Shown: in pieces, positions 1,690-21,447 of the stretch | How positions within the stretch are numbered: the stretch's first letter is position 1 | How the letters are laid out: every line of letters begins with the position of its first letter | Source of the DNA: a virus | Length of the DNA: 21,447 nt | IMG/VR virus record: IMGVR_UViG_3300025138_000448 | Location: 1-21,447 of that record | Direction: 5' to 3' (one strand) | The notes under the pieces: model-generated | Told to the model about the DNA's origin: nothing | The model's database searches: none | Seen by the model: the letters and a program-made list of their open reading frames with translations, nothing else | Translations under genes and position numbers: made by a program

Positions 1690-3924
1690 ATGGCTGATGA
1701 GATTAAACAATCTAAATTAGATGCTCAAGCATATAGAGATGCACTAAAAGAAGCTAGTGTAATTGCGGCAGAATCTAGACAAACCTTTAATGATATAGGG
1801 GCTGCATTATCTAATAATGCTAAAACTAATAAAGAATTTTCCGAAACTTTTAAAACAGCTCAAAAGGAAGCTGGAGGGTTATCTGGTGTTGCAGCAAAAT
1901 TAGCACAATACGGAAAAGAAGATTTAGCTAATTCTAAAGTTAGAAATAAACTAGCTAATGATTTAGCTGCTGTAGCTAAAAAACGTGCATCAACTGAAGC
2001 TACATTATTAGCTAATAAGAAAAAACTTGCAAATGCTACTGGTGATGAACGTACGGCTTTATTAGAAGCAAATCAAGCATTATCAGATTCACTTGATACC
2101 GCAGATAATTTAACAAAAGCATTTTCAAATTCTAAGGAACAGATTCAAGAAATAAATAAATCTACTGGGTTTATTGATAAATTAGCAGAGGGGTTAAAAA
2201 TTCTTCCGGGTATTGGGCCTTTACTAGCTGGTCCTATATCAAATTTATCTAAAGGTATAGCCCAATTTAAAGTAGGAATAGATTCAAGCTTAAAAGGATC
2301 ATCCAAAACAGCGGCACAATTAGAAAGAGCTAAAAATGCAACTGATGCTTTAGGTAAAGGTGCTTTAGCTTTTGTTATAGCAGGTATAGTAAAAGCTGAT
2401 AAATACACCACAGAATTTTCTAAAACTTTAGGAATATCTAAAAGTGATGCCAGAGATTTAGGACAGGAAATGAATACATTTGCCGTAAACAGTGGTAAAG
2501 CTTATTTAACTGTTCAAAAAATGCAAGAAGCTCAAATGGGCCTTGCAGATTCATTAGGAACTACTACTGGGTTTACAAATGATCAATTACAAGATCAAGT
2601 AATGCTTACTAAAAAAGTAGGATTACAAGGAGCAGAAGCTGCTAATTTACTAAAACTTAGTATGGCCCAAGGAAAATCGGCCAAAGTTGTATCAGAAGAA
2701 GTCTTAGACACAGTAGCTACTTTAGAAAAAGAAACAGGAATAAGATTAGATGGTAGAAAGGTATTAAAAGAAGTAGCCAATGCAACAGGACAATTAGGAG
2801 CACAATATGGGTTTAATAATAAGGCCCTAGCTGAAGCAGTTATAATTTCTAATAAATTAGGTCTTTCATTAAAAGAAACCCAAGGAATAGCTAGAGGACT
2901 ACTTGATTTTGAGAGTTCAATTCAATCAGAATTAGAAGCTGAACTATTAACGGGTAAAAATATTAACCTTAATCGAGCTAGAAGTTTAGCTTTACAAGGA
3001 AAAAGTGCAGAAGCAACGGCAGAAATAGTAAAACAGATGGGTACCTCAGCTGAATTTGCTAGTATGAATGTTTTACAACAGGATGCCCTAGCTAAATCAG
3101 CTGGTATGACTAGTGATCAATTAGCTGAAACTTTAAGAAATCAAGAAACTTTAAATGCTTTAGGAGCTACAAGTATAGCTCAATTAGCAGAAAAAGGAGA
3201 ATTAGAAAAATTAAATTCAACAGAAAACGGAAAACAGTTACTGCAAAACTATCAAAACCAACAGGTTCAAGAAAAATTAGCAGATTTAGTAACTAAAATT
3301 CAATCTTCTTTAGCTAATTCTGCTGAACCTTTACTAGGTTTAGTTGAAGGGTTTGCCAAATTATTAGAAAATGCAACAGCAGTTAAAGTTATAGTTGGTG
3401 TTATTACTACTGCTTTAGCAGCTCAATTTGCTTTAACAACAGCAAGTAAAATAACCCAATTATCTTTAAATAGAAGGTTATTAAAATCTAATGTAAAAAA
3501 TGCAGCTGTAACAACAGTAGAAGCGGGTGCTGAAGGTGCAAAAAGTGTTGCTAAAATACCATATGTTGGTGGTTTTCTTGCCCTTGGTATAGGAGCTGCC
3601 CTAATAGGTGGATTATTAGGATATCTAGCAGGAGCTAAGTCTGGTAATGATATAATGTCACCTGGAGGATCAGGATATGGTAATAGAACATTATTAGGCC
3701 CAGAAGGAGCTATTGCTTTAAATAATAAAGATACTGTAATAGCAGGAACTAAATTATTCCCAAATCAACAAACCCAACAATCCCCTGCTCAAACAATTGA
3801 CACATCAAGAATGGAAAATCTATTAGCTGCAGTTTTATCTAAACCAGCACCACAACCAGTAATAGAAATGAATGATGTAGCTTTAGGTACAGCTGTAGAC
3901 ATGAATGCATTTTCTATACAATAA
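1690..3924 (+). CDS. Tail tape measure protein
   Basis: This 744-residue protein is rich in Ala, Lys, Leu and Gln with long predicted helices and coiled coil through most of residues 1-560. Two hydrophobic segments lie near residues 564-585 (starting AVKVIVGVITTALAAQ) and 623-647 (IPYVGGFLALGIGAALIGG), as expected for a protein that crosses the inner membrane during genome ejection. The C-terminal part carries GPEGAIALNNKDTVIAGT (about residues 675-692), a signature familiar from tape measure proteins of marine T4-like phages. The protein fills the tube and fixes tail length. If the usual rule of about 0.15 nm per residue holds, the tail would be about 110 nm. The position after the gp26/gp51-like pair and before the baseplate genes fits. 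It starts with ATG after an A/T leader. There is no sign of disruption. Confidence 0.85.
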   Translation: MADEIKQSKLDAQAYRDALKEASVIAAESRQTFNDIGAALSNNAKTNKEFSETFKTAQKEAGGLSGVAAKLAQYGKEDLANSKVRNKLANDLAAVAKKRASTEATLLANKKKLANATGDERTALLEANQALSDSLDTADNLTKAFSNSKEQIQEINKSTGFIDKLAEGLKILPGIGPLLAGPISNLSKGIAQFKVGIDSSLKGSSKTAAQLERAKNATDALGKGALAFVIAGIVKADKYTTEFSKTLGISKSDARDLGQEMNTFAVNSGKAYLTVQKMQEAQMGLADSLGTTTGFTNDQLQDQVMLTKKVGLQGAEAANLLKLSMAQGKSAKVVSEEVLDTVATLEKETGIRLDGRKVLKEVANATGQLGAQYGFNNKALAEAVIISNKLGLSLKETQGIARGLLDFESSIQSELEAELLTGKNINLNRARSLALQGKSAEATAEIVKQMGTSAEFASMNVLQQDALAKSAGMTSDQLAETLRNQETLNALGATSIAQLAEKGELEKLNSTENGKQLLQNYQNQQVQEKLADLVTKIQSSLANSAEPLLGLVEGFAKLLENATAVKVIVGVITTALAAQFALTTASKITQLSLNRRLLKSNVKNAAVTTVEAGAEGAKSVAKIPYVGGFLALGIGAALIGGLLGYLAGAKSGNDIMSPGGSGYGNRTLLGPEGAIALNNKDTVIAGTKLFPNQQTQQSPAQTIDTSRMENLLAAVLSKPAPQPVIEMNDVALGTAVDMNAFSIQ

Positions 3925-3966: not shown

Positions 3967-4155
3967 ATGCCTCTATTAAACAAATTTGAACAACAAGGAA
4001 GTACATTAACTCCACTAAGAGGAGAACAACCATCTGCCCCATTAAAGGGAAATGGAGTAATTCCTGTTAATAATACATTTGAAGCTGGTACTTATCAAGA
4101 TTATGTTGTTGATACCCCAAGAGCATCAGATGTAACAGGTAATGTAGGAAACTAA
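3967..4155 (+). CDS. Small 62-residue protein of the tail module, unknown function
   Basis: The protein is small, polar and rich in Pro, Gly, Asn and Thr (MPLLNKFEQQGSTLTPLRGE at the N-terminus, VTGNVGN at the end). It has no membrane segment, signal peptide or cysteine, and looks mostly unstructured, as minor virion or adaptor proteins often do. It has its own upstream motif copy and A/T leader, and the next gene begins 3 bases after its stop, so the two are probably translated together. It lies between the tape measure and baseplate genes, which suggests a minor baseplate or tube-tip component. No family was recognised. Codon use matches its neighbours, supporting a real gene despite its length. 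Confidence 0.6.
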   Translation: MPLLNKFEQQGSTLTPLRGEQPSAPLKGNGVIPVNNTFEAGTYQDYVVDTPRASDVTGNVGN

Positions 4156-6668: not shown

Positions 6669-9600
6669 ATGAAAGGAAATGTAATAGGAGATCCAATAAT
6701 TCCTGTAATAGATGAACAAATTGATATTAGACAAAAACTTCATGGTGCTGGTTATAATGAATCTTCTATTGAACGTACTCCTGAAGTATTAAATATTTTA
6801 AATAATAAAAATGCTTGGATAAAAATGGCTTCGGGGGTTGCCCTAAAAGATGATACTAGATTAAAAATCCTACAACAATCAGATACATCTGGAGATTATT
6901 TTACTGATAATGATATACCTAGTTTAAGGGGAATGGAATTAGCTAAAAACTATGTTTTATTTAACTCTACACAAGCCCTAACTCAAGGAGCAGAATTTAC
7001 AACTACGGGCACAGGAAGAGATTCTGTTACAACCCAAACCAGAGCTGCCACTTATAATACTAGAAGTGGTGTAAGAGATACAAAATCATGGGGAGGAAAT
7101 AATGATAAAATATATGGTGGAATGGGTGGTAGTAGCAGAGGATTACAACCTATCCCAGGTATTACGGGTATAAAAATTGAATCTATTAATAGGGGTTCAA
7201 TTAGAAAAGCTACTGTTAGTTTAAAAGCATACAATAAATTTCAATTTGGTGTTATTGAAGTACTTTATTTAAGATTAGGATATTTAATGATGTTAGAATG
7301 GGGGTGGGATAAGTTTGTAAGTAAAATAGACGATGATAATAAACCTGTTGTAGAAAATGTAGAATCTACAATAATAGAAAATCAATGGTTTAAAACTAAA
7401 AGTTATTCTCAATTAGAAATGCTATCACAAATAAATATTTTTGTAGACAGATATAGGGGAAATTACCAAGGGTTTTTTGGTAAAGTAAATAACTTTAGTT
7501 GGAAGTTAAATCAAGATAACACTTATGATATTACAGTAAATTTAATTACTCTTGGAAGTATAGTAGAATCAATGTCAGTTAGAGTACCTTCACCACCTAT
7601 ATCTGCTCAAGCTCTTGCACAAAGAAAATCTGCACTTAAGAATTTATATAAACTTAACCCCCCACCACCTGAAGAAGGACAAGAACCAACAACATCAACA
7701 AATTCTAATAGTGTAATTAATAATTTGGGTACGGATAGATTATCTACTTTCATTGCCCAACAAATTGAATCATTTTTTGAACAGAATCTTCAAACTAATA
7801 AAAATTATTTATATCTCCCTAATGCAATAGGACAAAGATCAGAAGATGGAAACAGTGATATAAATATTAATAGAGATAAAATTCCTCCTAATTCACGTTA
7901 TTATATAAGATTTGGAGAATTAATAGATAAAATAGAAAATAATGTAATATTACAGGTTAAAAATGGAAATTCAAATCCAATTCCTAGGGTAAAATTTGAA
8001 ACATCTGAAAAATACACTCGAATTAGTTATGAACCTAACTTAATACCTTTAGATCCTTCAATATGTATTTTTAAACCTGTATATACTGCAGATTTAGGTG
8101 TTGTAGGAAATGTAAATCTTCCTACTTTTCAAGGAATTAAAGATTATGTAAAAGAAAAAAATGGAATTTATTATGGTGAACTAATGAATGTATATCTTAA
8201 TTTAAATTTTGTATCAAAAACTTTATCTAATAATAAGGATAAAAAAGGAGATATAACATTGTTTGACTTTTTACAAAAATTATTAGACGGTATTAATAGA
8301 TGTATGGGTAATGTTTGTGATCTTAATGTTTCTTTAAAAGATGATAATATTATATATTTTTTAGATGAAAACCCAATACAAGGGTATGACTTAGTATTTC
8401 CTAAAAAAGAAACAAAGTCAGTATTTAATGTTATAGGATATAACAGTGATGGTTCTTCTACGTTTGTAAAAAATTTTAGTTTTCAAACTAAAATAACACC
8501 TAGATTATTAAATCAAATTTCTATGGGGGCAGCAGATCCAAAGTCACCAAATAATTCTACAGATTCTATTGGGTTTTTAAATCTTAATAGTGGTCTTAAA
8601 AATAGATTTGAAGAGAAATATAAAGTCGGTCCTTTAGATAAATTTATAGCCCCTGTAGATAAAGAAACGGTAGCTAAAAAAGCAGCAGCAGAAGATACTA
8701 AAAAGTATAATACATTATATGAACAATTTAAAAAAGAAGCTCAATGGACAGGAGCATCCGGATATTATGGTTGGACATATAGAGGTTATAATAAAAACTA
8801 TAGGGGAGATGAAACATCTAAATGGAGTTATAATTCTACAAATTTTGCAGATGAAACTCTTAAACAAGCTGTTATAGAAGGAATAAAACAAATTGATAAA
8901 ACTTTAGAAAATTCATTAATGGAAATTAATGAACCAAATTCTCCTGGGGTTAATGATTATCCTACTTATTTATTAGATGCATTTGGGGGAAAAGGTACTA
9001 AAAAAATACTCGTAAAAACTAAAGACTTATATGAGACAAAAACAGAACGGATTAAAATAGGAAGTGAAGGTGGAAAACCTATGTATACTTATCAAACTAC
9101 AAAAACACTTAAAAATCCTAACCAACGTACTACAGAAGTACCACCCATTGCAGGAACAGTAACCGGGCAAATAACGGGACAAGTTTTTATAGATCAAGAA
9201 GTAGGAACATCTGATGCCTTATATTGGTATTCTTCAGATAATTCAGATTTTATAGATAGAGCCCTTAATATGTGGAAAAAATATAAAGTAGCTAATGATA
9301 CAACCAATTTTGAGGTTGCTGGTCAAGTAAATGGAGGTACTGGTTTTATTCCTGTAACTTTAGAATTAACTTCTGAAGGTATAGGAGGAATAAAAATATA
9401 CAATTCTATAAAAGTAAATCAAAAATCCTTACCTTCTTCATACCCAGCTAAACTAAATTTTTTAGTAGATAAAGTAAACCATACAGTAAAAGATAATAAA
9501 TGGGAAACTTCAATTTCAACAATCTCTACACCCAGAACTACTAAGGGTGAAGCAAGAAAAGTTGTTGCAGCTAAGCAAGTTTATGTTAAAGGAAAAACTA

Positions 9601-10427
9601 AAGCTAAATCTTCTGGAGGTGGGGGAATAGTAAGACCATGGACAGGAGACCCAGCTATGGCTAAAACAATTACATCTGGTTATCCATTAATAGCACCAAC
9701 AAGTAATGGGTTAGTATATTGGGATAGGATTTTAGAACCTAAAATCCAAATAGTACTTCACCATACAGCAGGATTAAACTCAGTTGAAAGTGTTATTAAA
9801 TCTTGGTGTAGAAAAGATGAACACGTTTCTACTCATTTTATTATCCAAAGAAGTGGATTTGTAGAACAATTATTCCCATTAAAATATTATGGTAATCATT
9901 TAGGATCAAAAATTTCACCTGCCTCTTATTTACAAAAAGCTACAGTTTCTATAGAACTACAAGCCTTAGGTTATGTAAAAGTTAAAGGTGCTAGTAAAAG
10001 CAATTCTACATTTAACAAATCCTCAGTTTTTGTTCAAAGTGATAAAGAATATACTTACGAAAGACTTCAACAAGGCCAACCAGATGTACCTGTTGCAGAA
10101 CCTTATAAAATGAAACCTGATGGTACACTTGTAAAAGCAGGTGATTATAAAGGTTATGGTCTTTATCATGCTTATACTAAAAAACAAATTAATGCTTTAG
10201 CTTTTACACTAGCAAGAATTAAAGCAGCATACCCTAATATTACAATAAACTCTAGATATAGTGGTGGAAATGCTTTTTACGAACAATTTCCAGATAAAAA
10301 TAAAGTTGCTAAAACAGCTTATAGTAAAAATCGAGGTACTTTTACTCATAATTCTTACAAAACAAGTAAAAGTGATATATTCCCACAAAAAGAAATGATA
10401 GAAATGTTACAAAAATTTAACGATTAA
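6669..10427 (+). CDS. Baseplate hub protein fused to a C-terminal peptidoglycan amidase
   Basis: This 1252-residue protein has two parts. Residues 1 to about 975 look like a baseplate hub protein of marine T4-like phages, with IPGITGIKIESINRGSIRKA and LRLGYLMMLEWGWDKFV near residues 160-220. A basic, Gly-rich hinge (KSSGGGG, about 980-986) leads to an N-acetylmuramoyl-L-alanine amidase domain (amidase_2/PGRP type, about 1025-1245). The visible catalytic pattern is HHT at 1031-1033, HVSTHF with His1052 and His1056, Glu1096 in SIELQ, and His1227 followed by Lys1234 and Asp1236 in THNSYKTSKSD, an AmpD-like arrangement of zinc ligands. Such a domain cuts the cell wall during tail penetration, the job done in T4 by the gp5 lysozyme at the gp27 hub. 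The gene is 2 bases from the LysM-like gene and 1 base from the next. The amidase call is strong; gp27 equivalence is inferred. Confidence 0.82.
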   Translation: MKGNVIGDPIIPVIDEQIDIRQKLHGAGYNESSIERTPEVLNILNNKNAWIKMASGVALKDDTRLKILQQSDTSGDYFTDNDIPSLRGMELAKNYVLFNSTQALTQGAEFTTTGTGRDSVTTQTRAATYNTRSGVRDTKSWGGNNDKIYGGMGGSSRGLQPIPGITGIKIESINRGSIRKATVSLKAYNKFQFGVIEVLYLRLGYLMMLEWGWDKFVSKIDDDNKPVVENVESTIIENQWFKTKSYSQLEMLSQINIFVDRYRGNYQGFFGKVNNFSWKLNQDNTYDITVNLITLGSIVESMSVRVPSPPISAQALAQRKSALKNLYKLNPPPPEEGQEPTTSTNSNSVINNLGTDRLSTFIAQQIESFFEQNLQTNKNYLYLPNAIGQRSEDGNSDININRDKIPPNSRYYIRFGELIDKIENNVILQVKNGNSNPIPRVKFETSEKYTRISYEPNLIPLDPSICIFKPVYTADLGVVGNVNLPTFQGIKDYVKEKNGIYYGELMNVYLNLNFVSKTLSNNKDKKGDITLFDFLQKLLDGINRCMGNVCDLNVSLKDDNIIYFLDENPIQGYDLVFPKKETKSVFNVIGYNSDGSSTFVKNFSFQTKITPRLLNQISMGAADPKSPNNSTDSIGFLNLNSGLKNRFEEKYKVGPLDKFIAPVDKETVAKKAAAEDTKKYNTLYEQFKKEAQWTGASGYYGWTYRGYNKNYRGDETSKWSYNSTNFADETLKQAVIEGIKQIDKTLENSLMEINEPNSPGVNDYPTYLLDAFGGKGTKKILVKTKDLYETKTERIKIGSEGGKPMYTYQTTKTLKNPNQRTTEVPPIAGTVTGQITGQVFIDQEVGTSDALYWYSSDNSDFIDRALNMWKKYKVANDTTNFEVAGQVNGGTGFIPVTLELTSEGIGGIKIYNSIKVNQKSLPSSYPAKLNFLVDKVNHTVKDNKWETSISTISTPRTTKGEARKVVAAKQVYVKGKTKAKSSGGGGIVRPWTGDPAMAKTITSGYPLIAPTSNGLVYWDRILEPKIQIVLHHTAGLNSVESVIKSWCRKDEHVSTHFIIQRSGFVEQLFPLKYYGNHLGSKISPASYLQKATVSIELQALGYVKVKGASKSNSTFNKSSVFVQSDKEYTYERLQQGQPDVPVAEPYKMKPDGTLVKAGDYKGYGLYHAYTKKQINALAFTLARIKAAYPNITINSRYSGGNAFYEQFPDKNKVAKTAYSKNRGTFTHNSYKTSKSDIFPQKEMIEMLQKFND

Positions 10428-11312: not shown

Positions 11313-12584
11313 ATGTACTGGCTTGTAGAAAACGAGGAACAGTTAAATGTTTTAATAAATAGTGGTTATAAAAAAGCGTTCATTGAGGTAATACCTTATA
11401 ATGATACAATTCACCCCGTACTAAATCATGTAAGTTTAGTGTATATTAGACCGATTAAAGCGAGTAAAGGTTTTATGGTATGTATTACGCATAGTGAATC
11501 TTTAAATGCGTTAAACACGCGTATAAACGATTTATTAAACAAGTTTGATATACTATATTGTCGTGATAAAAAAGAGATGTTACATTATTTTCCAATCAAA
11601 ACTCTTTATGACATTAATACACCTCCTAATCCGTATATACGACCTACAACACAAACACACGATTTATATTATAGACAACACAAAGATAATCCGGAGTTAA
11701 ATTTAATTATACCGATTGTCAAACATTATGAATTGTGTGAAACAATTTTTAGAGATCTAAAAGCAAATATTAACATAGAAAAAACAAAATATGATGAATT
11801 CTTTAACAGTCGAGTATCCGTGGTATTCAACGCCATCGAGAGAAGTGGCATACGTATACACAATGACACCTTCAGTGAATACTTCCACGCAGTTGACGGT
11901 AAATACGTCAACACTCAGTTCAACTTAAAAACAACAACTACTAGACCTAGTAATAAATTTAATAATGTAAATTATGCAGCACTTAATAAAGAAAATGGAT
12001 GTAGAAAAAGTTTTATACCACGTAATAATAGGTTTGTGGAAATTGATATCTCTGCTTACCATCCTAGCTTGTCTGCTCGTCTTATTGATTATGATTTTGC
12101 CGGCGTTGATATTCACAAGCATTTTGCTTCCTTATATAGAGTGGATTACAAAAAATCGAAAGAACTTACCTTCAAGCAACTCTATGGAGGCGTTTTTGAC
12201 AATTACAAAGGCCTGGAATTCTTTCAAAAAATCGAGGAATATGTAGGAGGACTTTGGGGTAAGTTTCAAAGCGATGGGTTTGTAGAATGTGAGATTTCTG
12301 GGTATAGATATGAAAAGGAAAACTTGGATAATATGAATCCACAAAAGTTATTTAATTACATATTACAAAATTTAGAAACGTCTACAAATGTGTTGATATT
12401 GTGGGATATACTTTGTATATTAAGAAAATACAAGACACAACTAGTATTATATACATATGATTCGTTTTTATTTGATGTAGATAATGAAGAAGCAGAAGTT
12501 TTAGAAGAAGTTAGAGAAGTATTTAAAAAATATAAATTAAACATAAAAGAAATAGAAGGTTATGACTACAATTTTACAGAATAA
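11313..12584 (+). CDS. Divergent family A DNA polymerase without a visible proofreading domain
   Basis: The C-terminal half of this 423-residue protein has the family A (Pol I/T7) polymerase motifs in order. Motif 1 is TTTTRPSNKFNNVNYAAL with Arg211, followed by GCRKSFIP with Arg231. Motif A is EIDISAYHPSLSARL with Asp245 as the first metal ligand. Motif B is KELTFKQLYGG, where Lys283, Phe287, Tyr291 and Gly292 match the spacing K-x3-F-x3-YG of the O helix; the usual leading Arg is Tyr. Motif C is YDS (Asp383) in place of HDE. Residues 1-150 sit where the 3'-5' exonuclease would be, but no DxE or other exonuclease motif is visible. T4 itself has a family B polymerase, so this is a non-orthologous replacement or a second polymerase. 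It opens the replication run, just after a promoter-like site. Codon use shifts sharply near 11800-11935 and 12041-12240. The palm assignment is firm; replicative role is inferred. Confidence 0.78.
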   Translation: MYWLVENEEQLNVLINSGYKKAFIEVIPYNDTIHPVLNHVSLVYIRPIKASKGFMVCITHSESLNALNTRINDLLNKFDILYCRDKKEMLHYFPIKTLYDINTPPNPYIRPTTQTHDLYYRQHKDNPELNLIIPIVKHYELCETIFRDLKANINIEKTKYDEFFNSRVSVVFNAIERSGIRIHNDTFSEYFHAVDGKYVNTQFNLKTTTTRPSNKFNNVNYAALNKENGCRKSFIPRNNRFVEIDISAYHPSLSARLIDYDFAGVDIHKHFASLYRVDYKKSKELTFKQLYGGVFDNYKGLEFFQKIEEYVGGLWGKFQSDGFVECEISGYRYEKENLDNMNPQKLFNYILQNLETSTNVLILWDILCILRKYKTQLVLYTYDSFLFDVDNEEAEVLEEVREVFKKYKLNIKEIEGYDYNFTE

Positions 12585-16062: not shown

Positions 16063-17432
16063 CACTAAACAGCATAAACCAGTACGGACACGAATTTCAA
16101 ATAAAGGTTTTATCCTCGTTATTAACTCATAAGGAATTTTTAGTTAATATACATGATATAATTTCTGATGAATATTTCGAAAATCCAGCTCAAAAATGGG
16201 CTATAAAGGAAATATTAAAATATTATGACAAATATCATACTACACCTTCATTAGATATATTAAAAGTAGAATTATTAAAAGTAGATAATGAAGTATTACA
16301 ATTATCTATTAAAGAACAACTTAAATTAGCATATGTAACTTCAGATGAGGATTTAGAATATGTTCAGGAGGAATTTACAAACTTTTGTAAAAACCAACAA
16401 TTAAAAAAAGCACTAATGTCTTCTGTTGATTTACTTAAAGGAGGAGATTTTGACGGTATTCGTTATTTAATTGATAATGCTTTAAAAGCAGGACAAGATA
16501 AAAATTTAGGACATGAATATATTAAAGATATTGAAGAACGTTATAGAGAAAATTCAAGAGAAACTGTTCCTACCCCTTGGCCAAAAATTGATCAATTACT
16601 ACAGGGTGGACTTGGAAATGGAGATTTTGGTCTCATATTTGGTAATCCAGGAGGTGGTAAATCTTGGTCATTAGTAGCCTTAGGTGGTCATGCTGTTAGA
16701 TTAGGGTATAATGTACTCCATTATACTTTAGAATTAGGTGAAGAATATGTTGGAAAACGATATGACGCTTTTTTTACAAAAATCCCAGTTAATAAAGTAG
16801 ATTCACATAGAGATAAAATTGAAGAAATCATACCTCAATTACCAGGTCAGTTAATTATTAAAGAATACCCAACAGGAAGAGCATCAGTTTCAACAATTGA
16901 GTCACATATTGCGAAAAGCACAAGTATGGGAGTCAAACCAGATTTAGTAATAATTGATTATGTAGATCTTCTTTCATCAAGAAAAACAAATAGGGAACGT
17001 AAAGATGAAATTGATGATATTTATACAAGTACTAAAGGATTAGCTAGACAACTTAATATACCAATTTGGTCAGTTTCACAAGTTAATCGTGCAGGAGCTC
17101 AGGATAAAGTTATCCAAGGAGATAAGGCAGCAGGGTCATATGATAAAATTATGATAACTGATTTTTGTATGTCTTTATCTCGTAAAAAAGAAGATAAAGT
17201 TAATAACACAGGGAGATTCCATTTAATGAAAAACCGATATGGTATGGATGGAATTACTTTTGGGTTAGAAGCTGATACTTCTACTGGACATTTTATTGTA
17301 AAAGATGAGTATGTTGAAGGTGAAGAAGATGAAAATTTCACACCTTCCTCAAAGTCTAATAAATTTGATACAGATGTAGATACATTTGATAAGCAGTTAT
17401 TACGTAAGAAATTTTTTGAATTAAACCCTTAA
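16059..17432 (+). CDS. gp41: Replicative DNA helicase, DnaB / T4 gp41 family
   Basis: This 457-residue protein has the DnaB layout: an N-terminal helical domain (about 1-150) and a RecA-like motor with Walker A GNPGGGKS at residues 195-202, Glu225 in YTLELGEE, Walker B PDLVIIDYVDLLSS with Asp300, and a later QVNRAGAQ segment matching the DnaB H3/Q motif region. The C-terminus is charged. It would form a hexamer on the lagging strand and unwind the fork. The start is TTG at 16059, overlapping the TGA stop of the exonuclease as ATTGA, a classic translational coupling arrangement; no ATG lies near the beginning of the frame and the N-terminal sequence LNSINQYGHEFQIKVLSSLL fits the family. The gp41 label is by phage context; no primase (gp61) gene is seen in the window. 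Confidence 0.88.
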   Translation: MTLNSINQYGHEFQIKVLSSLLTHKEFLVNIHDIISDEYFENPAQKWAIKEILKYYDKYHTTPSLDILKVELLKVDNEVLQLSIKEQLKLAYVTSDEDLEYVQEEFTNFCKNQQLKKALMSSVDLLKGGDFDGIRYLIDNALKAGQDKNLGHEYIKDIEERYRENSRETVPTPWPKIDQLLQGGLGNGDFGLIFGNPGGGKSWSLVALGGHAVRLGYNVLHYTLELGEEYVGKRYDAFFTKIPVNKVDSHRDKIEEIIPQLPGQLIIKEYPTGRASVSTIESHIAKSTSMGVKPDLVIIDYVDLLSSRKTNRERKDEIDDIYTSTKGLARQLNIPIWSVSQVNRAGAQDKVIQGDKAAGSYDKIMITDFCMSLSRKKEDKVNNTGRFHLMKNRYGMDGITFGLEADTSTGHFIVKDEYVEGEEDENFTPSSKSNKFDTDVDTFDKQLLRKKFFELNP

Positions 17433-17441
17433 ATATAATAA

Positions 17442-18428
17442 ATGGCAAAAAGAGACATTACCAAAGAAAGAATAGTTTATAAACCTTTTGAATACCAAGA
17501 AGCATCAGATTATTGGTTAAAACAACATCAAGCACATTGGCTACATACAGAAGTACCTATGATGTCAGATGTTAATGATTGGAAACAAAATCTTAATGAA
17601 TCCGAAAAAAATATTATTGGTACTATCCTAAAGGGGTTTGCTCAAACTGAAACTGTAGTAAATGATTATTGGACTAATTTAGTAACAAGTTGGTTTAGAA
17701 AGCCTGAAATAATTAAAATGGCTGTTACATTTGGGGCGTTTGAAACTATCCATGCTGAAGCTTATTCTTTATTAAATGAAGAATTAGGATTAGATGATTT
17801 TAGTGAATTTTTAGAGGATGAAGCAACAATGGCTAAAATTGATGCCTTAACAACAGTAAGAGATTCACATGATGGTACTCCTAATTGGCATGAAAGAGCT
17901 AAATCCTTAGCTATATTTTCAGCATTTACAGAAGGAGTTAATTTATTTTCTTCGTTTGCAGTTTTGTTATCATTTAAATTAGATAATAAACTTAAAGGTG
18001 TAGGTCAAATAGTTGAATGGAGTATTAGGGATGAATCATTACATTCAGATGCAGGTTGTTGGTTATTTAGAACATTAATGCAAGAACACCCTGAATTTAA
18101 CACACCTGAATTAAAAGCAGATATTGAAAAAGCAGCATTATTATCTTTAAAATTAGAATTAGATTTTATTAATAAAGTATATGAAATGGGTGATTTAAAA
18201 GGATGCCCAAAATATGATTTAGTGTCATTTATCAAACATAGAGTAAACACTAAAATGAGTGATTTAGGATATGGTGCAATTGTAAATGGTATAGATAAAG
18301 AAGCAGTAAAAAGAATGAAATGGTTTGATAGCTTATCAGCTGGTAAACAACATACAGATTTCTTTGCAAACCGAGTTACTAACTATTCAAAAGGTGTTCA
18401 AGATTGGGATGCTGGATCATTATTTTAA
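17442..18428 (+). CDS. nrdB: Ribonucleoside-diphosphate reductase, small (radical-generating) subunit
   Basis: This 328-residue protein shows the ferritin-like R2 ligand set: Glu101 and His104 in FETIHAEAY, Glu164 in FTEGVNLF, and Glu198 and His201 in IRDESLHSDAG. The radical tyrosine is present as Tyr108, seven residues after Glu101. The first ligand, Asp84 in E. coli, falls at Glu70 here (QTETVVNDYW) if the 31-residue spacing holds, which is a variation seen in some other class I subgroups. The C-terminal DWDAGSLF is the expected tail that docks on the large subunit. It reduces ribonucleotides together with NrdA, supplying dNTPs for phage replication. The order nrdB then nrdA is the reverse of the E. 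coli operon. ATG lies 9 bases after the helicase stop. Confidence 0.93.
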   Translation: MAKRDITKERIVYKPFEYQEASDYWLKQHQAHWLHTEVPMMSDVNDWKQNLNESEKNIIGTILKGFAQTETVVNDYWTNLVTSWFRKPEIIKMAVTFGAFETIHAEAYSLLNEELGLDDFSEFLEDEATMAKIDALTTVRDSHDGTPNWHERAKSLAIFSAFTEGVNLFSSFAVLLSFKLDNKLKGVGQIVEWSIRDESLHSDAGCWLFRTLMQEHPEFNTPELKADIEKAALLSLKLELDFINKVYEMGDLKGCPKYDLVSFIKHRVNTKMSDLGYGAIVNGIDKEAVKRMKWFDSLSAGKQHTDFFANRVTNYSKGVQDWDAGSLF

Positions 18429-18431
18429 AAT

Positions 18432-20147
18432 ATGGAAAACAACGCACTACAAGTAGATTATAATAATTGGGAAGCTGGAAAGCAATACCCAGAATGGATG
18501 GATGAGATTTCATTAGCAACAATTTCTAAAGGGTATTTATTACCTAATGAAACTGTAAAAACAGCATATAGAAGAGTAGCAAACGCTTCGGCAACTAGAT
18601 TAAAAAAACCAGAACTAGCAAATAAATTTTTCAAAATAATGTGGAATGGGTGGTTAGGGTTAGCATCACCTGTGTTGTCAAATATGGGGACTGATAGAGG
18701 TTTACCTATTTCGTGTTTTGGTGTTGATACACCTGATTCAATACGTGGAATCGGTTTAACTAACGCGGAACTAATGAAGCTAACAGCATCCGGTGGTGGT
18801 GTTGGTATTTCGTTATCTCGCATTAGAGAACGTGGGGAAGGAATTACTGGAAACGGTAAAAGTGAAGGTGTAGTGCCATGGGCTAAAATATTTGATTCAT
18901 CAATTATTGCTACTAATCAAGGAAATGTAAGAAGAGGAGCAGCATCTGTAAATTTAGATATTGAACATGGGGATATTGAAGAATTTTTACAAATTCGTAG
19001 ACCTAAAGGTGATCCAAACAGACAATGTTTAAATTTACATCAATGTGTTGTTGTAGGTGACTCATTTATGAGAAAATTAGAAGCAAGAGACCCAGATGCT
19101 ATGAATAGATGGGCTACTGTTTTAAAATCTAGAATGGAAACAGGAGAACCTTATATAATGTATAAGGATAATGTTAATAAAGATAACCCAATTGCTTATA
19201 GGTTAAATAATTTAGAAGTATCTATGACTAATATCTGTTCTGAAATTACTTTATTTACAGATGAAGAACATTCATTTATTTGTTGTTTATCTTCTATGAA
19301 TTTAGCAAAATATGAAGAATGGAAGGATACAGACGCAGTTGAATTATCTACTTGGTTTTTAGATGGAGTAATGCAAGAATTTATAGATAAATCAAATGGT
19401 AAGGAAAGTTTAAAAAGAACACACTCACATGCTAGAAAAGGTAGAGCTTTAGGTTTAGGTGTAATGGGTTGGCATTCATTCTTACAACAAAAGGGATTAC
19501 CATTTAACTCTATAGCATCTACAGCTCACACTCATAATATATTTTCTGATATTAGAGGTAAAGCTGAAAAAGCATCTATGGCTTTAGCTGCTGAATACGG
19601 AGAGCCACTATGGTGTAGAGGAACAGGTATGAGAAATACTCATTTACTAGCTATAGCACCCACAGTATCAAATTCGGTGATTGTAGGAGGAATTAGTGCT
19701 GGTATTGAACCTTTACCTGCTAACATTTATACTTTTAATGGTGCTAAAGGAACATTTATTAGAAAGAATAAAGAATTACAAAAGATTTTAATTTCTAAAG
19801 GTGAAGATAAAGATAAATGGTGGGATCAAATGTTAGCTGAAGATGGATCAGCACAAGGTCTTCCAGATAATGTTTTAACACCAGAAGAAAAAGAATTGTT
19901 TTTAACATTTCCTGAAATTAATCAATTAGAATTAGTTCGACAGGCAGCTATTAGACAACGTTATATTGACCAAACTCAATCACTAAATTTATCATTTGAT
20001 GTTAATGACTCACCAAAATGGATTAATCAAGTACATTTAGAAGGATGGAAACTAGGTATAAAAACATTTTATTATTTAAGAACAGATAGTGTAATAAAGG
20101 GTGATCTTGGTTCAAGAATGGCAGATTGTGTATCTTGTGATGGATAG
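18432..20147 (+). CDS. nrdA: Ribonucleoside-diphosphate reductase, large (catalytic) subunit
   Basis: This 571-residue protein carries the class I catalytic residues: Cys95 in LPISCFG and Cys284 in ICCLSSMNL as the redox pair (E. coli 225 and 462), the finger-loop NICSE with Asn267, Cys269 and Glu271 (E. coli 437, 439, 441), the radical-transfer pair Tyr547-Tyr548 in TFYYLRT, and a C-terminal CVSC pair (566, 569) that passes electrons from thioredoxin or glutaredoxin. It is about 190 residues shorter than the E. coli protein and lacks the N-terminal ATP cone, so overall activity control by ATP/dATP is probably absent. It begins 3 bases after nrdB, so the two are co-translated. All key residues are present, and the gene looks functional. 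Confidence 0.94.
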   Translation: MENNALQVDYNNWEAGKQYPEWMDEISLATISKGYLLPNETVKTAYRRVANASATRLKKPELANKFFKIMWNGWLGLASPVLSNMGTDRGLPISCFGVDTPDSIRGIGLTNAELMKLTASGGGVGISLSRIRERGEGITGNGKSEGVVPWAKIFDSSIIATNQGNVRRGAASVNLDIEHGDIEEFLQIRRPKGDPNRQCLNLHQCVVVGDSFMRKLEARDPDAMNRWATVLKSRMETGEPYIMYKDNVNKDNPIAYRLNNLEVSMTNICSEITLFTDEEHSFICCLSSMNLAKYEEWKDTDAVELSTWFLDGVMQEFIDKSNGKESLKRTHSHARKGRALGLGVMGWHSFLQQKGLPFNSIASTAHTHNIFSDIRGKAEKASMALAAEYGEPLWCRGTGMRNTHLLAIAPTVSNSVIVGGISAGIEPLPANIYTFNGAKGTFIRKNKELQKILISKGEDKDKWWDQMLAEDGSAQGLPDNVLTPEEKELFLTFPEINQLELVRQAAIRQRYIDQTQSLNLSFDVNDSPKWINQVHLEGWKLGIKTFYYLRTDSVIKGDLGSRMADCVSCDG

Positions 20148-20214
20148 CCATATGTATAAGTGTTATTCTTTATAGTTGTTAGTTATATTTTGTTTAACTA
20201 AAATCAAATATTTT

Positions 20215-20445
20215 ATGGAAATTTTAACTAAGATTGGCTCTTGGGCCAACAAACTGACTGAGATAGGAATTTCAGTTATCGCACTCGGAGTAGTACTCGA
20301 AGTACTATTTGGTGGAATTGGTATCCCCTTTTGGAAGGATATATCTGTAGTAGATAATATTATGGGAATACTTGGCAATCTGGATGGAAAAGGCTTATTA
20401 GGCCTAGTAGGTGCTTTTGTGCTAATTCATATACTAAAAAAATAG
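20215..20445 (+). CDS. Small predicted membrane protein, holin candidate
   Basis: The frame opens at TTG 20176, but ATG 20215 gives the more natural 76-residue protein starting MEILTKIGSWANKL. Two hydrophobic stretches are predicted at about residues 18-38 (starting GISVIALGVVLEVLFGGIGI) and 57-74 (KGLLGLVGAFVLIHILKK), joined by a mildly acidic loop (WKDISVVDNIMG), and the C-terminus is basic. This size and layout fit a class II-like holin or another small phage membrane protein, but no family is recognised. It lies after nrdA with 67 bases of A/T-rich sequence before it and a strong terminator 24 bases after its stop, so it may end the replication transcript or be its own unit. Confidence 0.66.
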   Translation: MEILTKIGSWANKLTEIGISVIALGVVLEVLFGGIGIPFWKDISVVDNIMGILGNLDGKGLLGLVGAFVLIHILKK

Positions 20446-20471
20446 TATAAAAAATTGCAAAGAGGATTAAG

Positions 20472-20498
20472 AAGGGTGCATTAGCACCCTTTTTTTTT
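20472..20498 (+). terminator. Rho-independent terminator after the small membrane protein gene
   Basis: AAGGGTGC (20472-20479) and GCACCCTT (20484-20491) form a perfect 8-bp stem with an ATTA loop, followed by an unbroken T run to 20498. This is a textbook intrinsic terminator and the strongest in the window with that at 564. It separates the replication and nucleotide genes from the outer-membrane-type gene that follows. Confidence 0.94.
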
Positions 20499-20564
20499 AT
20501 ATTTATGAGCAAATATGGTTGTTAAAATATATAGTTATCTACTTAAATAAATAAATTAAACTAT
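20499..20564 (+). promoter_or_regulatory. Leader of the secreted protein gene with a degenerate upstream motif
   Basis: ATATTTATGAGCAAATATGG follows the terminator T run directly, as the related motif does at 1664. It keeps the ATATTTAT core but not the AATAAAA part. The rest is A/T-rich (ACTTAAATAAATAAATTAAA) up to the ATG at 20565, with no Shine-Dalgarno sequence. A promoter is expected because of the terminator upstream; its exact site is not resolved. Confidence 0.3.
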
Positions 20565-21447
20565 ATGAAAAAACTACTATTATTAGTGTTTATATTATTA
20601 CTAACAGTCCCTTCTTTTAGCCAGGAAGAAGAAAAAACTTCATTCTTTAAAAAGGCAACTAAAGAATTTTATAAAGATTTCCTTAAATACGGAACAGTAT
20701 ATGGTGCTGGTAGTATTTCTAATTCAATTGAAGCTGCTGAACCAACATATTTTTTAAGAACCAACTCAGATGGGAGTATCTACTCAATTCCAGATGTAGT
20801 AAATAATACAGAAGTATTTCCATTCGATTACAGATATGGGTTTGGTATTAGAAAATTAGCAAGATTCGATTACGAGAGAAAGCCAAGAAATTATTATGAT
20901 GGTACTGAAGAACAATTAGTATTTGGAGCACCTACATCAGCAGTTCAAGGATTAGAATATCAATTCCATTTTGAAAAAGAAAGATGGAGAGGTGAAGATT
21001 TTATTAATTATAATTTTTTCTTAAAACATACTGGTAAATATCACATCGCAAAAATACAAGCTAGAGAAGTAGGTAAAATTAACTTAAAATATAACTCAGC
21101 TGAGTTAAGAGGTAGACTACCGATTGGAGAAAAATTTAGTGTATCTGCGGGTGCTATAGTAAGAGGACATGAAAGAGCATATGGTTATAATCCAGTTGAA
21201 ATTTGGTTAAATGAAACTGAAGTAGCTATGGATGGTAATGGTAATCCAGTTATAGGCCCAGATGGAAATCCTTTAGAGTTTCCTATTAATCAATGGTATA
21301 GTTTAGGAAGAGAATATGGGTACACTGATGTATTTTATTCTCAAACAAGTACAGATTATAATACAGGAGAAGAAACTACAACGCAAGATTGGTATTGGGT
21401 TAATGAAGAAGGAGAAACGGTTGCATCCTCTGATTTAGATTTTAGAG
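20565..21447 (+). CDS. Secreted, probable outer-membrane beta-barrel protein, 3' end outside the window
   Basis: The frame is open from ATG 20565 to the window end (294 codons) with no stop. The N-terminus is a clear signal peptide: two Lys, a run of Leu, Val, Ile and Phe, then TVPSFSQ before EEEK, with cleavage probably at or near Ser-Gln, in the style of Bacteroidota exported proteins. The mature part has alternating polar and hydrophobic strands rich in Tyr, Phe, Gly and Arg (DYRYGFGIRKLARFDYERK, INLKYNSAELRGRLPIGEK, FSVSAGAIVRGHERAYG), as in outer-membrane barrels, plus an Asn-Gly-Pro-rich loop near residues 225-243. A role in the host envelope such as altering surface properties or blocking superinfection is possible, and so is a virion protein. 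No family was recognised. Codon use matches the phage genes around it. Confidence 0.68.
   Translation, partial: MKKLLLLVFILLLTVPSFSQEEEKTSFFKKATKEFYKDFLKYGTVYGAGSISNSIEAAEPTYFLRTNSDGSIYSIPDVVNNTEVFPFDYRYGFGIRKLARFDYERKPRNYYDGTEEQLVFGAPTSAVQGLEYQFHFEKERWRGEDFINYNFFLKHTGKYHIAKIQAREVGKINLKYNSAELRGRLPIGEKFSVSAGAIVRGHERAYGYNPVEIWLNETEVAMDGNGNPVIGPDGNPLEFPINQWYSLGREYGYTDVFYSQTSTDYNTGEETTTQDWYWVNEEGETVASSDLDFR

Follow-up and report, generated by a model that had tools for sequence, protein, structure and literature searches.

Two-component spanins such as lambda Rz/Rz1 and T4 PseT.3/PseT.2 are phage-encoded, often lie beside holin and endolysin genes, and pair an inner-membrane protein having an N-terminal helix and a periplasmic coiled coil with a partner in the outer membrane (PMC6139136). 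In the same source an outer-membrane protein acting as o-spanin is raised as an untested possibility (Kongari et al. 2018), and the phages listed as lacking spanins include those of Bacteroides and Croceibacter. Only unimolecular spanins were reported from Bacteroidota phages in one survey (PMC12596118). The three-gene module described here is likewise phage-encoded, often adjoins holin and endolysin genes, and has a putative inner-membrane protein with a predicted N-terminal helix and a probable coiled coil together with an outer-membrane partner. It differs from two-component spanins in that this partner is a predicted beta-barrel with a non-lipoprotein signal, and in that a third, thioredoxin-like (Trx-like) periplasmic protein is added. 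Because the lipoprotein is missing, the module falls outside the known kind of spanin, and it may still work like one. Outer-membrane breakage by Bacteroidota phages is poorly known; the module offers a specific, widely distributed candidate whose partners can be named, and it makes the suggestion of an outer-membrane protein as o-spanin directly testable. Our search of open-access literature, covering titles and the starts of abstracts, returned no description of this module. Phage outer-membrane proteins are known in general; the searches made turned up neither this family nor its partners or setting.

The window, by which we mean the whole 21,447-base virus record that was analysed, carries ribonucleotide reductase (RNR), helicase, nuclease and UvsX-like genes and ends inside the barrel gene (Table 1). 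The open reading frame runs from its ATG to the window end without a stop (294 aa), which is about the first 70% of the gene; roughly the last quarter to third is missing. Complete relatives have about 400 aa and can be aligned with the window frame along its whole length, so the frame is real and not a chance one. As the window gene is truncated, we turned to relatives for the complete protein, the nearest of which (L047) is 90% identical over 278 columns. The original prediction was of a clear secretory signal, and the N-terminus, MKKLLLLVFILLLTVPSFSQ, is indeed plausible as a Sec signal peptide; of 115 complete relatives, 114 pass a crude charge-plus-hydrophobicity rule for such signals. 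The lipobox cysteine is absent, which makes the signal one of the non-lipoprotein type. Residue Q20 is invariant in an 89-row alignment, and cleavage probably occurs at or just before it. Codon use was said to match that of the phage, which agrees with the correlation found against 15 pooled window genes (r = 0.962), and the GC content of the gene is 0.318 against 0.306 for the window.

Table 1. Features of the window that bear on the barrel gene and its setting.
Feature	Position	Strand	Remarks
Motif ATATTTATRANNAAA	25..39	+	27 bases before ORF 52-540 (tail-tube-like by eye)
Motif ATATTTATRANNAAA	1665..1679	+	25 bases before ORF 1690-3924 (tape-measure-like by eye)
Motif ATATTTATRANNAAA	3927..3941	+	40 bases before ORF 3967-4155
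Small membrane protein, 76 aa	20215..20445	+	79% identical to L122:7798-8025
Intrinsic-terminator-like hairpin with T-run	20469..20494	+	11 pairs; separates barrel gene from upstream genes
Motif ATATTTATRANNAAA	20499..20513	+	66 bases 5' of barrel start codon
Predicted outer-membrane beta-barrel protein gene, signal-peptide-bearing	20565..21447	+	ORF; ~400-aa relatives; 12-strand model of complete relative
Probable signal peptide region, aa 1-20	20565..20624	+	Translation; invariant Q20; crude rule on relatives

AlphaFold models of a complete relative gave a barrel that is closed and has an even strand count, both with 22 sequences (mean pLDDT 66) and with 89 (mean pLDDT 80, pTM 0.69), and the same 12 main strands were found in the two. 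A fold other than a barrel had been named in advance as evidence against the original prediction; what the models of the complete relative predict is a 12-strand barrel. When both models were compared with the PDB by Foldseek, barrels were matched with no family prominent. The pLDDT-80 model reached E 1.9e-6 to 6ehe and had only 15 matches below E 0.001, and its top match by VIA was CymA (Z 11.4, rmsd 6.0, 215 aligned residues). CymA, KdgM, NanC, FapF and NalP have the barrel architecture in common with the family at about 4-14% identity, and such middling matches, spread over many unrelated barrels, imply no family membership. Sequence searches of the barrel against Pfam, PHROGs, NCBIfam and PDB sequences gave no convincing match. 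Among 89 members compared with Pfam-A no family matched more than one, and a single member reached OMP_b-brl at E 0.0087; assignment to Ail/Lom or to another Pfam outer-membrane family was rejected on this profile comparison. Together, the signal rule, the AlphaFold models and the PDB fold matches support an exported outer-membrane beta-barrel, as had been proposed from the window alone.

Other phages also have outer-membrane barrels. Lambda Lom, a phage-encoded outer-membrane protein, is one such case, and cyanophage and porin-like proteins were matched in a search of viral folds. These viral matches were short or weak with one exception, the 342-aa BFVD protein A0A516LKJ4 (Foldseek E 1.9e-27, TM-score 0.64/0.75, 24% identity, 413 columns), which, judging from the models, is very probably a true distant relative. 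The last strand of an outer-membrane barrel is expected to end in an aromatic or hydrophobic residue. The C-terminus, which lies beyond the window and was read in relatives, is TFR, TFK, SFK, SFR or TFN in 91 of the 115 and TLK, TLR or TIK in the other 24, so that the F or L/I stands one residue before the end. Invariant positions make up 26% of periplasmic (n=43), 18% of extracellular (n=182) and 28% of strand (n=140) positions; the idea that the periplasmic loops form the conserved face of the barrel is suggestive only. One periplasmic loop of 31 residues (98-128) is conserved and was modelled at a pLDDT of about 41-66.

Such genes had been called uncommon in lytic phage genomes, a statement that did not hold. 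In the viral collection a single-sequence search found barrel relatives in 45 of 49 pattern stretches, and an alignment search found them in at least 247 (247/330 pattern stretches), 80 of which were kept for study; the membrane-protein family described below has at least 575 relatives in viral stretches, of which 80 were kept. In the cultured-phage collection, tblastn with the barrel and with its partners returned chance-level matches or none. A scan of genome contigs with the Trx-like alignment identified five contigs in metagenome-assembled genomes (L122-L126), with the barrel gene complete in four and its end only in one. The same scan with the barrel alignment gave 28 pattern matches and no relatives, its patterns being limited, as the five contigs found with the Trx-like alignment make plain. 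A bacterial origin was rejected for L122, L123, L124 and L125, which look viral by their neighbours. The fifth contig, L126 (3.7 kb, module at 1957-3724), was binned as a Flavobacteriaceae genome and may be a prophage or a virus.

In the relatives the barrel gene is followed on the same strand by a gene for a membrane protein of about 94 aa and then by one for an exported Trx-like protein. Among 83 non-redundant loci, all 70 with at least 2.5 kb of downstream sequence had the full trio. A second set, built from 80 loci found through the membrane protein and the five metagenome-assembled-genome contigs, comprised 82 new loci, 74 of which had the trio complete. The Trx-like gene was missing in three of the 82, all at contig ends, and five had no barrel within four genes upstream. 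Three of these five (L177, L181 and L192) have less than 430 bp of upstream DNA, L139 has its barrel gene farther upstream (2253-3419), and L195 is a real exception, with no barrel in its 5 kb. From this gene order we expect the window's two partner genes to lie beyond the window end. The proposal that the barrel gene has its own unit therefore stands in part: the terminator and the motif it shares with putative virion genes set it apart from what lies upstream, but relatives have it at the head of three genes.

The membrane protein stands alone between the barrel and Trx-like genes in 99 of 119 complete modules; in another 16 a lipoprotein-like ORF lies in this interval, and these lipoproteins could be ordinary o-spanins. 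In one sub-lineage (L138:4583-5026, L139:4583-5026 and L124:685-1128) a Tyr/Pro-rich lipoprotein is encoded by a gene that shares about 30 bases with the start of the membrane-protein gene, an overlap like that of spanin genes, and it is a candidate ordinary o-spanin.

The best 19-residue hydrophobic window of the membrane protein begins near residue 17 in most members, a second one beyond residue 45 is found in only one of 115, and the tail reads by eye as helical and heptad-like. The protein thus probably has one N-terminal membrane helix followed by a coiled coil. It had no match to a known spanin, and reached the PHROG Rz-like spanin family only at E 0.075. That family (PHROG 739) has matches in 7 of 16 phage records and in 11 of 14 control genomes, Gram-positives and archaea included, and identification as an Rz-like spanin by this profile was rejected as unspecific. 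The phage of locus L056 has another Rz-like coiled-coil gene. In L089 (11233-11538), L104 (11077-11403) and L177 (123-425) a longer paralogue with a conserved KWPRGEMGALPDD stretch adjoins the membrane protein.

Profile searches place the third protein in the thioredoxin fold (best E 1.2e-8 to solved thioredoxins; Pfam PF00085, 7.7e-6). No CxxC is present in any of 115 relatives, the active-site stretch reading like EFWAxFNxxNxF, and an export-type N-terminus was recognised by the crude signal rule in 107 of 115. These two counts contradict the notion that the Trx-like protein is the reductant of the neighbouring RNR and the barrel a bystander; both main lineages do have RNR genes nearby, but RNR is cytoplasmic, and we practically discount this explanation.

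Within 17000-21447 two terminator-like sites were found against 1.7 expected from shuffles, a count that is uninformative by itself; the hairpin upstream of the barrel gene stands out by its paired stem, its long T-run and its recurrence in the corresponding position of L055, L059, L061, L108 and L131. The motif just beyond it has four exact matches in the window, all on the + strand (shuffle mean 0.08, 0/100 shuffles with four or more), a figure that flatters the motif because the pattern was composed after inspection. Looser forms precede the barrel gene in L055, L059, L061, L063 and L131, and in related loci also precede an amidase gene and a small membrane gene. The T4 late promoter consensus is TATAAATA; the window motif reads TATTTATA on the coding strand, the reverse complement. 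Identity with the T4 late promoter was rejected for this reason, and the motif is called late-promoter-like by position only. Its occurrence before putative virion genes suggests that the barrel protein would be made late in infection.

Downstream of the Trx-like gene the neighbours differ by locus and include an M15 peptidase (PF08291, 2.2e-16), an amidase with a wall-binding domain (PF01510 plus PG_binding), other endolysin-like genes and a holin (PF05105, 3.4e-5), with PHROG matches to endolysins 894 and 33083 and to holin 199. Peptidoglycan hydrolases of four families lie within 2.5 kb downstream at 72 of 108 loci and within the same distance upstream at 6 of 108, and at 2.5-5 kb downstream at none of 37; counted on either side, they are present at 61 of 86 loci. 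At 36 of the 108 none of the tested hydrolases is next to the module downstream, and these loci include a lineage with a giant virion-type gene upstream and RNR downstream. Since the hydrolase families had been picked from downstream genes, we made a seed-free repeat in which 120 downstream and 65 upstream ORFs from 28 random loci were compared with PHROGs. Endolysin family 894 was matched by 10 of the 120 downstream and 1 of the 65 upstream ORFs, and family 33083 by five downstream and none upstream among the 25 families listed of 34. Families 2649, 1224 and 1493 had four, three and three downstream matches against one each upstream, and RNR families were common on both sides. The barrel gene of L123 shares its beginning with an M15 endolysin gene. 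Among the 16 phage records also compared with PHROG 739, which were chosen for length and not for having this endolysin, none matched the M15 endolysin family PHROG 894. Relatives of the 76-aa membrane protein upstream of the window's barrel gene were detected 11 times, three directly before an endolysin-like gene and three directly before a barrel gene.

By their neighbours, 115 complete modules were divided into 31 T4-like (RNR upstream), 52 'giant' (preceded by a very long gene, or followed by RNR on the opposite strand) and 32 unclassed. On a quick barrel tree with long branches at L166 and L170 the labels change seven times, and well-supported branches force at least six of these changes. 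The module is in at least two phage lineages and has been transferred repeatedly, and the forced changes indicate that it tracks the biology of the host and not the type of virion. At 61 loci the partial correlation of divergences, given RNR, was 0.33 for the membrane and Trx-like proteins (0/200 permutations as high), 0.15 for the barrel and Trx-like proteins (0/200) and 0.11 for the barrel and membrane proteins (8/200). The weakness of the two barrel correlations suggests that exchange of the barrel is in part independent of its partners and tells against a tightly co-evolving complex.

The hosts appear to be marine Bacteroidota, as indicated by the glutamine after the signal peptide, by GEVED and type IX secretion (T9SS) sorting domains in a related phage and by contig binning. 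A glutamine in this position is typical of Bacteroidota. Contigs were binned with Bacteroidetes and Flavobacteriaceae, and three others with an archaeal genome, probably wrongly. Directly upstream of its barrel gene, L058 (4303-9972; near-identical to L056) has a run of secreted surface-protein genes, and similar genes are present in L074 (5585-9937). The L058 run encodes a GEVED domain (E 7.8e-14) accompanied by a weak match to dockerin, a fusion of a cohesin (2.1e-8) with a C-terminal T9SS sorting domain (8.5e-9; TIGR04183, 5.1e-11), a protein that is CsgG-like by eye and lacks Pfam, NCBIfam and PDB confirmation, and another exported long protein. It would be unusual for a phage to use the type IX secretion of its host. 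Curli genes are known in a T4-like marine Bacteroidetes virus (PMC7198788).

We propose, with a probability of about 40%, that the trio is a late-made, envelope-spanning complex of three proteins that disrupts the outer membrane at lysis. This role is preferred because the three-compartment anatomy is like that of a spanin complex, because lysis genes adjoin the module and because the barrel gene carries a late-type signal. The barrel would sit in the outer membrane in place of the spanin lipoprotein, the Trx-like protein, without its redox centre, would serve in the periplasm as an adaptor, and the single-span protein would be anchored in the inner membrane with its coiled coil in the periplasm. 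Holin and endolysin would first open the inner membrane and the wall; the trio would then link inner and outer membrane and break the latter. We infer this physical association, topology and timing, as well as the function in lysis, from the gene order and the predicted properties of the three proteins. A bolder version, in which the trio represents a third class of outer-membrane disruption machine with a beta-barrel as its outer subunit, transferred among unrelated phages of marine Bacteroidota, is doubtful but worth stating. Even with some other role, a strict trio with one part per envelope compartment, found in at least two marine lineages and built on a barrel with no Pfam or PHROG family, deserves a name.

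Lysis was not among the roles first listed for the barrel, and of those that were, nutrient uptake and a decoy function gained no finding in their favour. Superinfection exclusion keeps a place as an unlikely but serious alternative. The barrel and its partners might mask a receptor, blocking adsorption or injection by related phages or the loss of progeny on debris, as the outer-membrane location, the large extracellular loops (including ones of 101 and 36 residues in the model) and the occurrence in unrelated phages with probably shared hosts would allow. However, the motif is of a late type and the setting not an early one, the neighbourhood is one of hydrolases and holin, the extracellular loops show no hypervariability, and the strictly conserved presence of periplasmic partners would need another reason.

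The barrel may instead be an outer-membrane channel or exporter used during infection, for example for phage proteins bound for the surface, which we think rather improbable. Its fold resembles CymA, KdgM, NanC, FapF and autotransporter domains, but all of these matches are generic. The cohesin and T9SS-sorted proteins directly upstream in L058 might be such cargo, but among the loci read surface-protein genes occur only there and in L074, whereas the module is general, and a Trx-like partner without CxxC together with a single-span coiled coil is unlike any known exporter.

Improbable, too, is a tether or timing device, in which the trio holds or senses the envelope and delays lysis until progeny are sufficient. 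The three-compartment anatomy and lysis neighbourhood would suit it as they suit outer-membrane disruption; no convincing antiholin or lysis-inhibition match was found in PHROGs, though, and two members compared with the RIIB lysis inhibitor gave chance-level values (E 0.36 and 0.68). A virion or genome-ejection component is very improbable: the barrel gene directly follows the giant virion-type gene in one lineage, but the signal peptide would export its product from the cytoplasm, where virions assemble, and the T4-like lineage has the gene behind RNR, apart from the tail genes.

Two further proteins of the window drew our attention. A tail or baseplate-type protein of 1252 aa (6669-10427) clusters with the lysis-cassette amidase of L049, and it seems to share an amidase domain with endolysins. 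A protein of 423 aa (11313-12584) matches phage DNA polymerase only weakly (PHROG 17, E 1.9e-4) and is possibly a short or degenerate polymerase.
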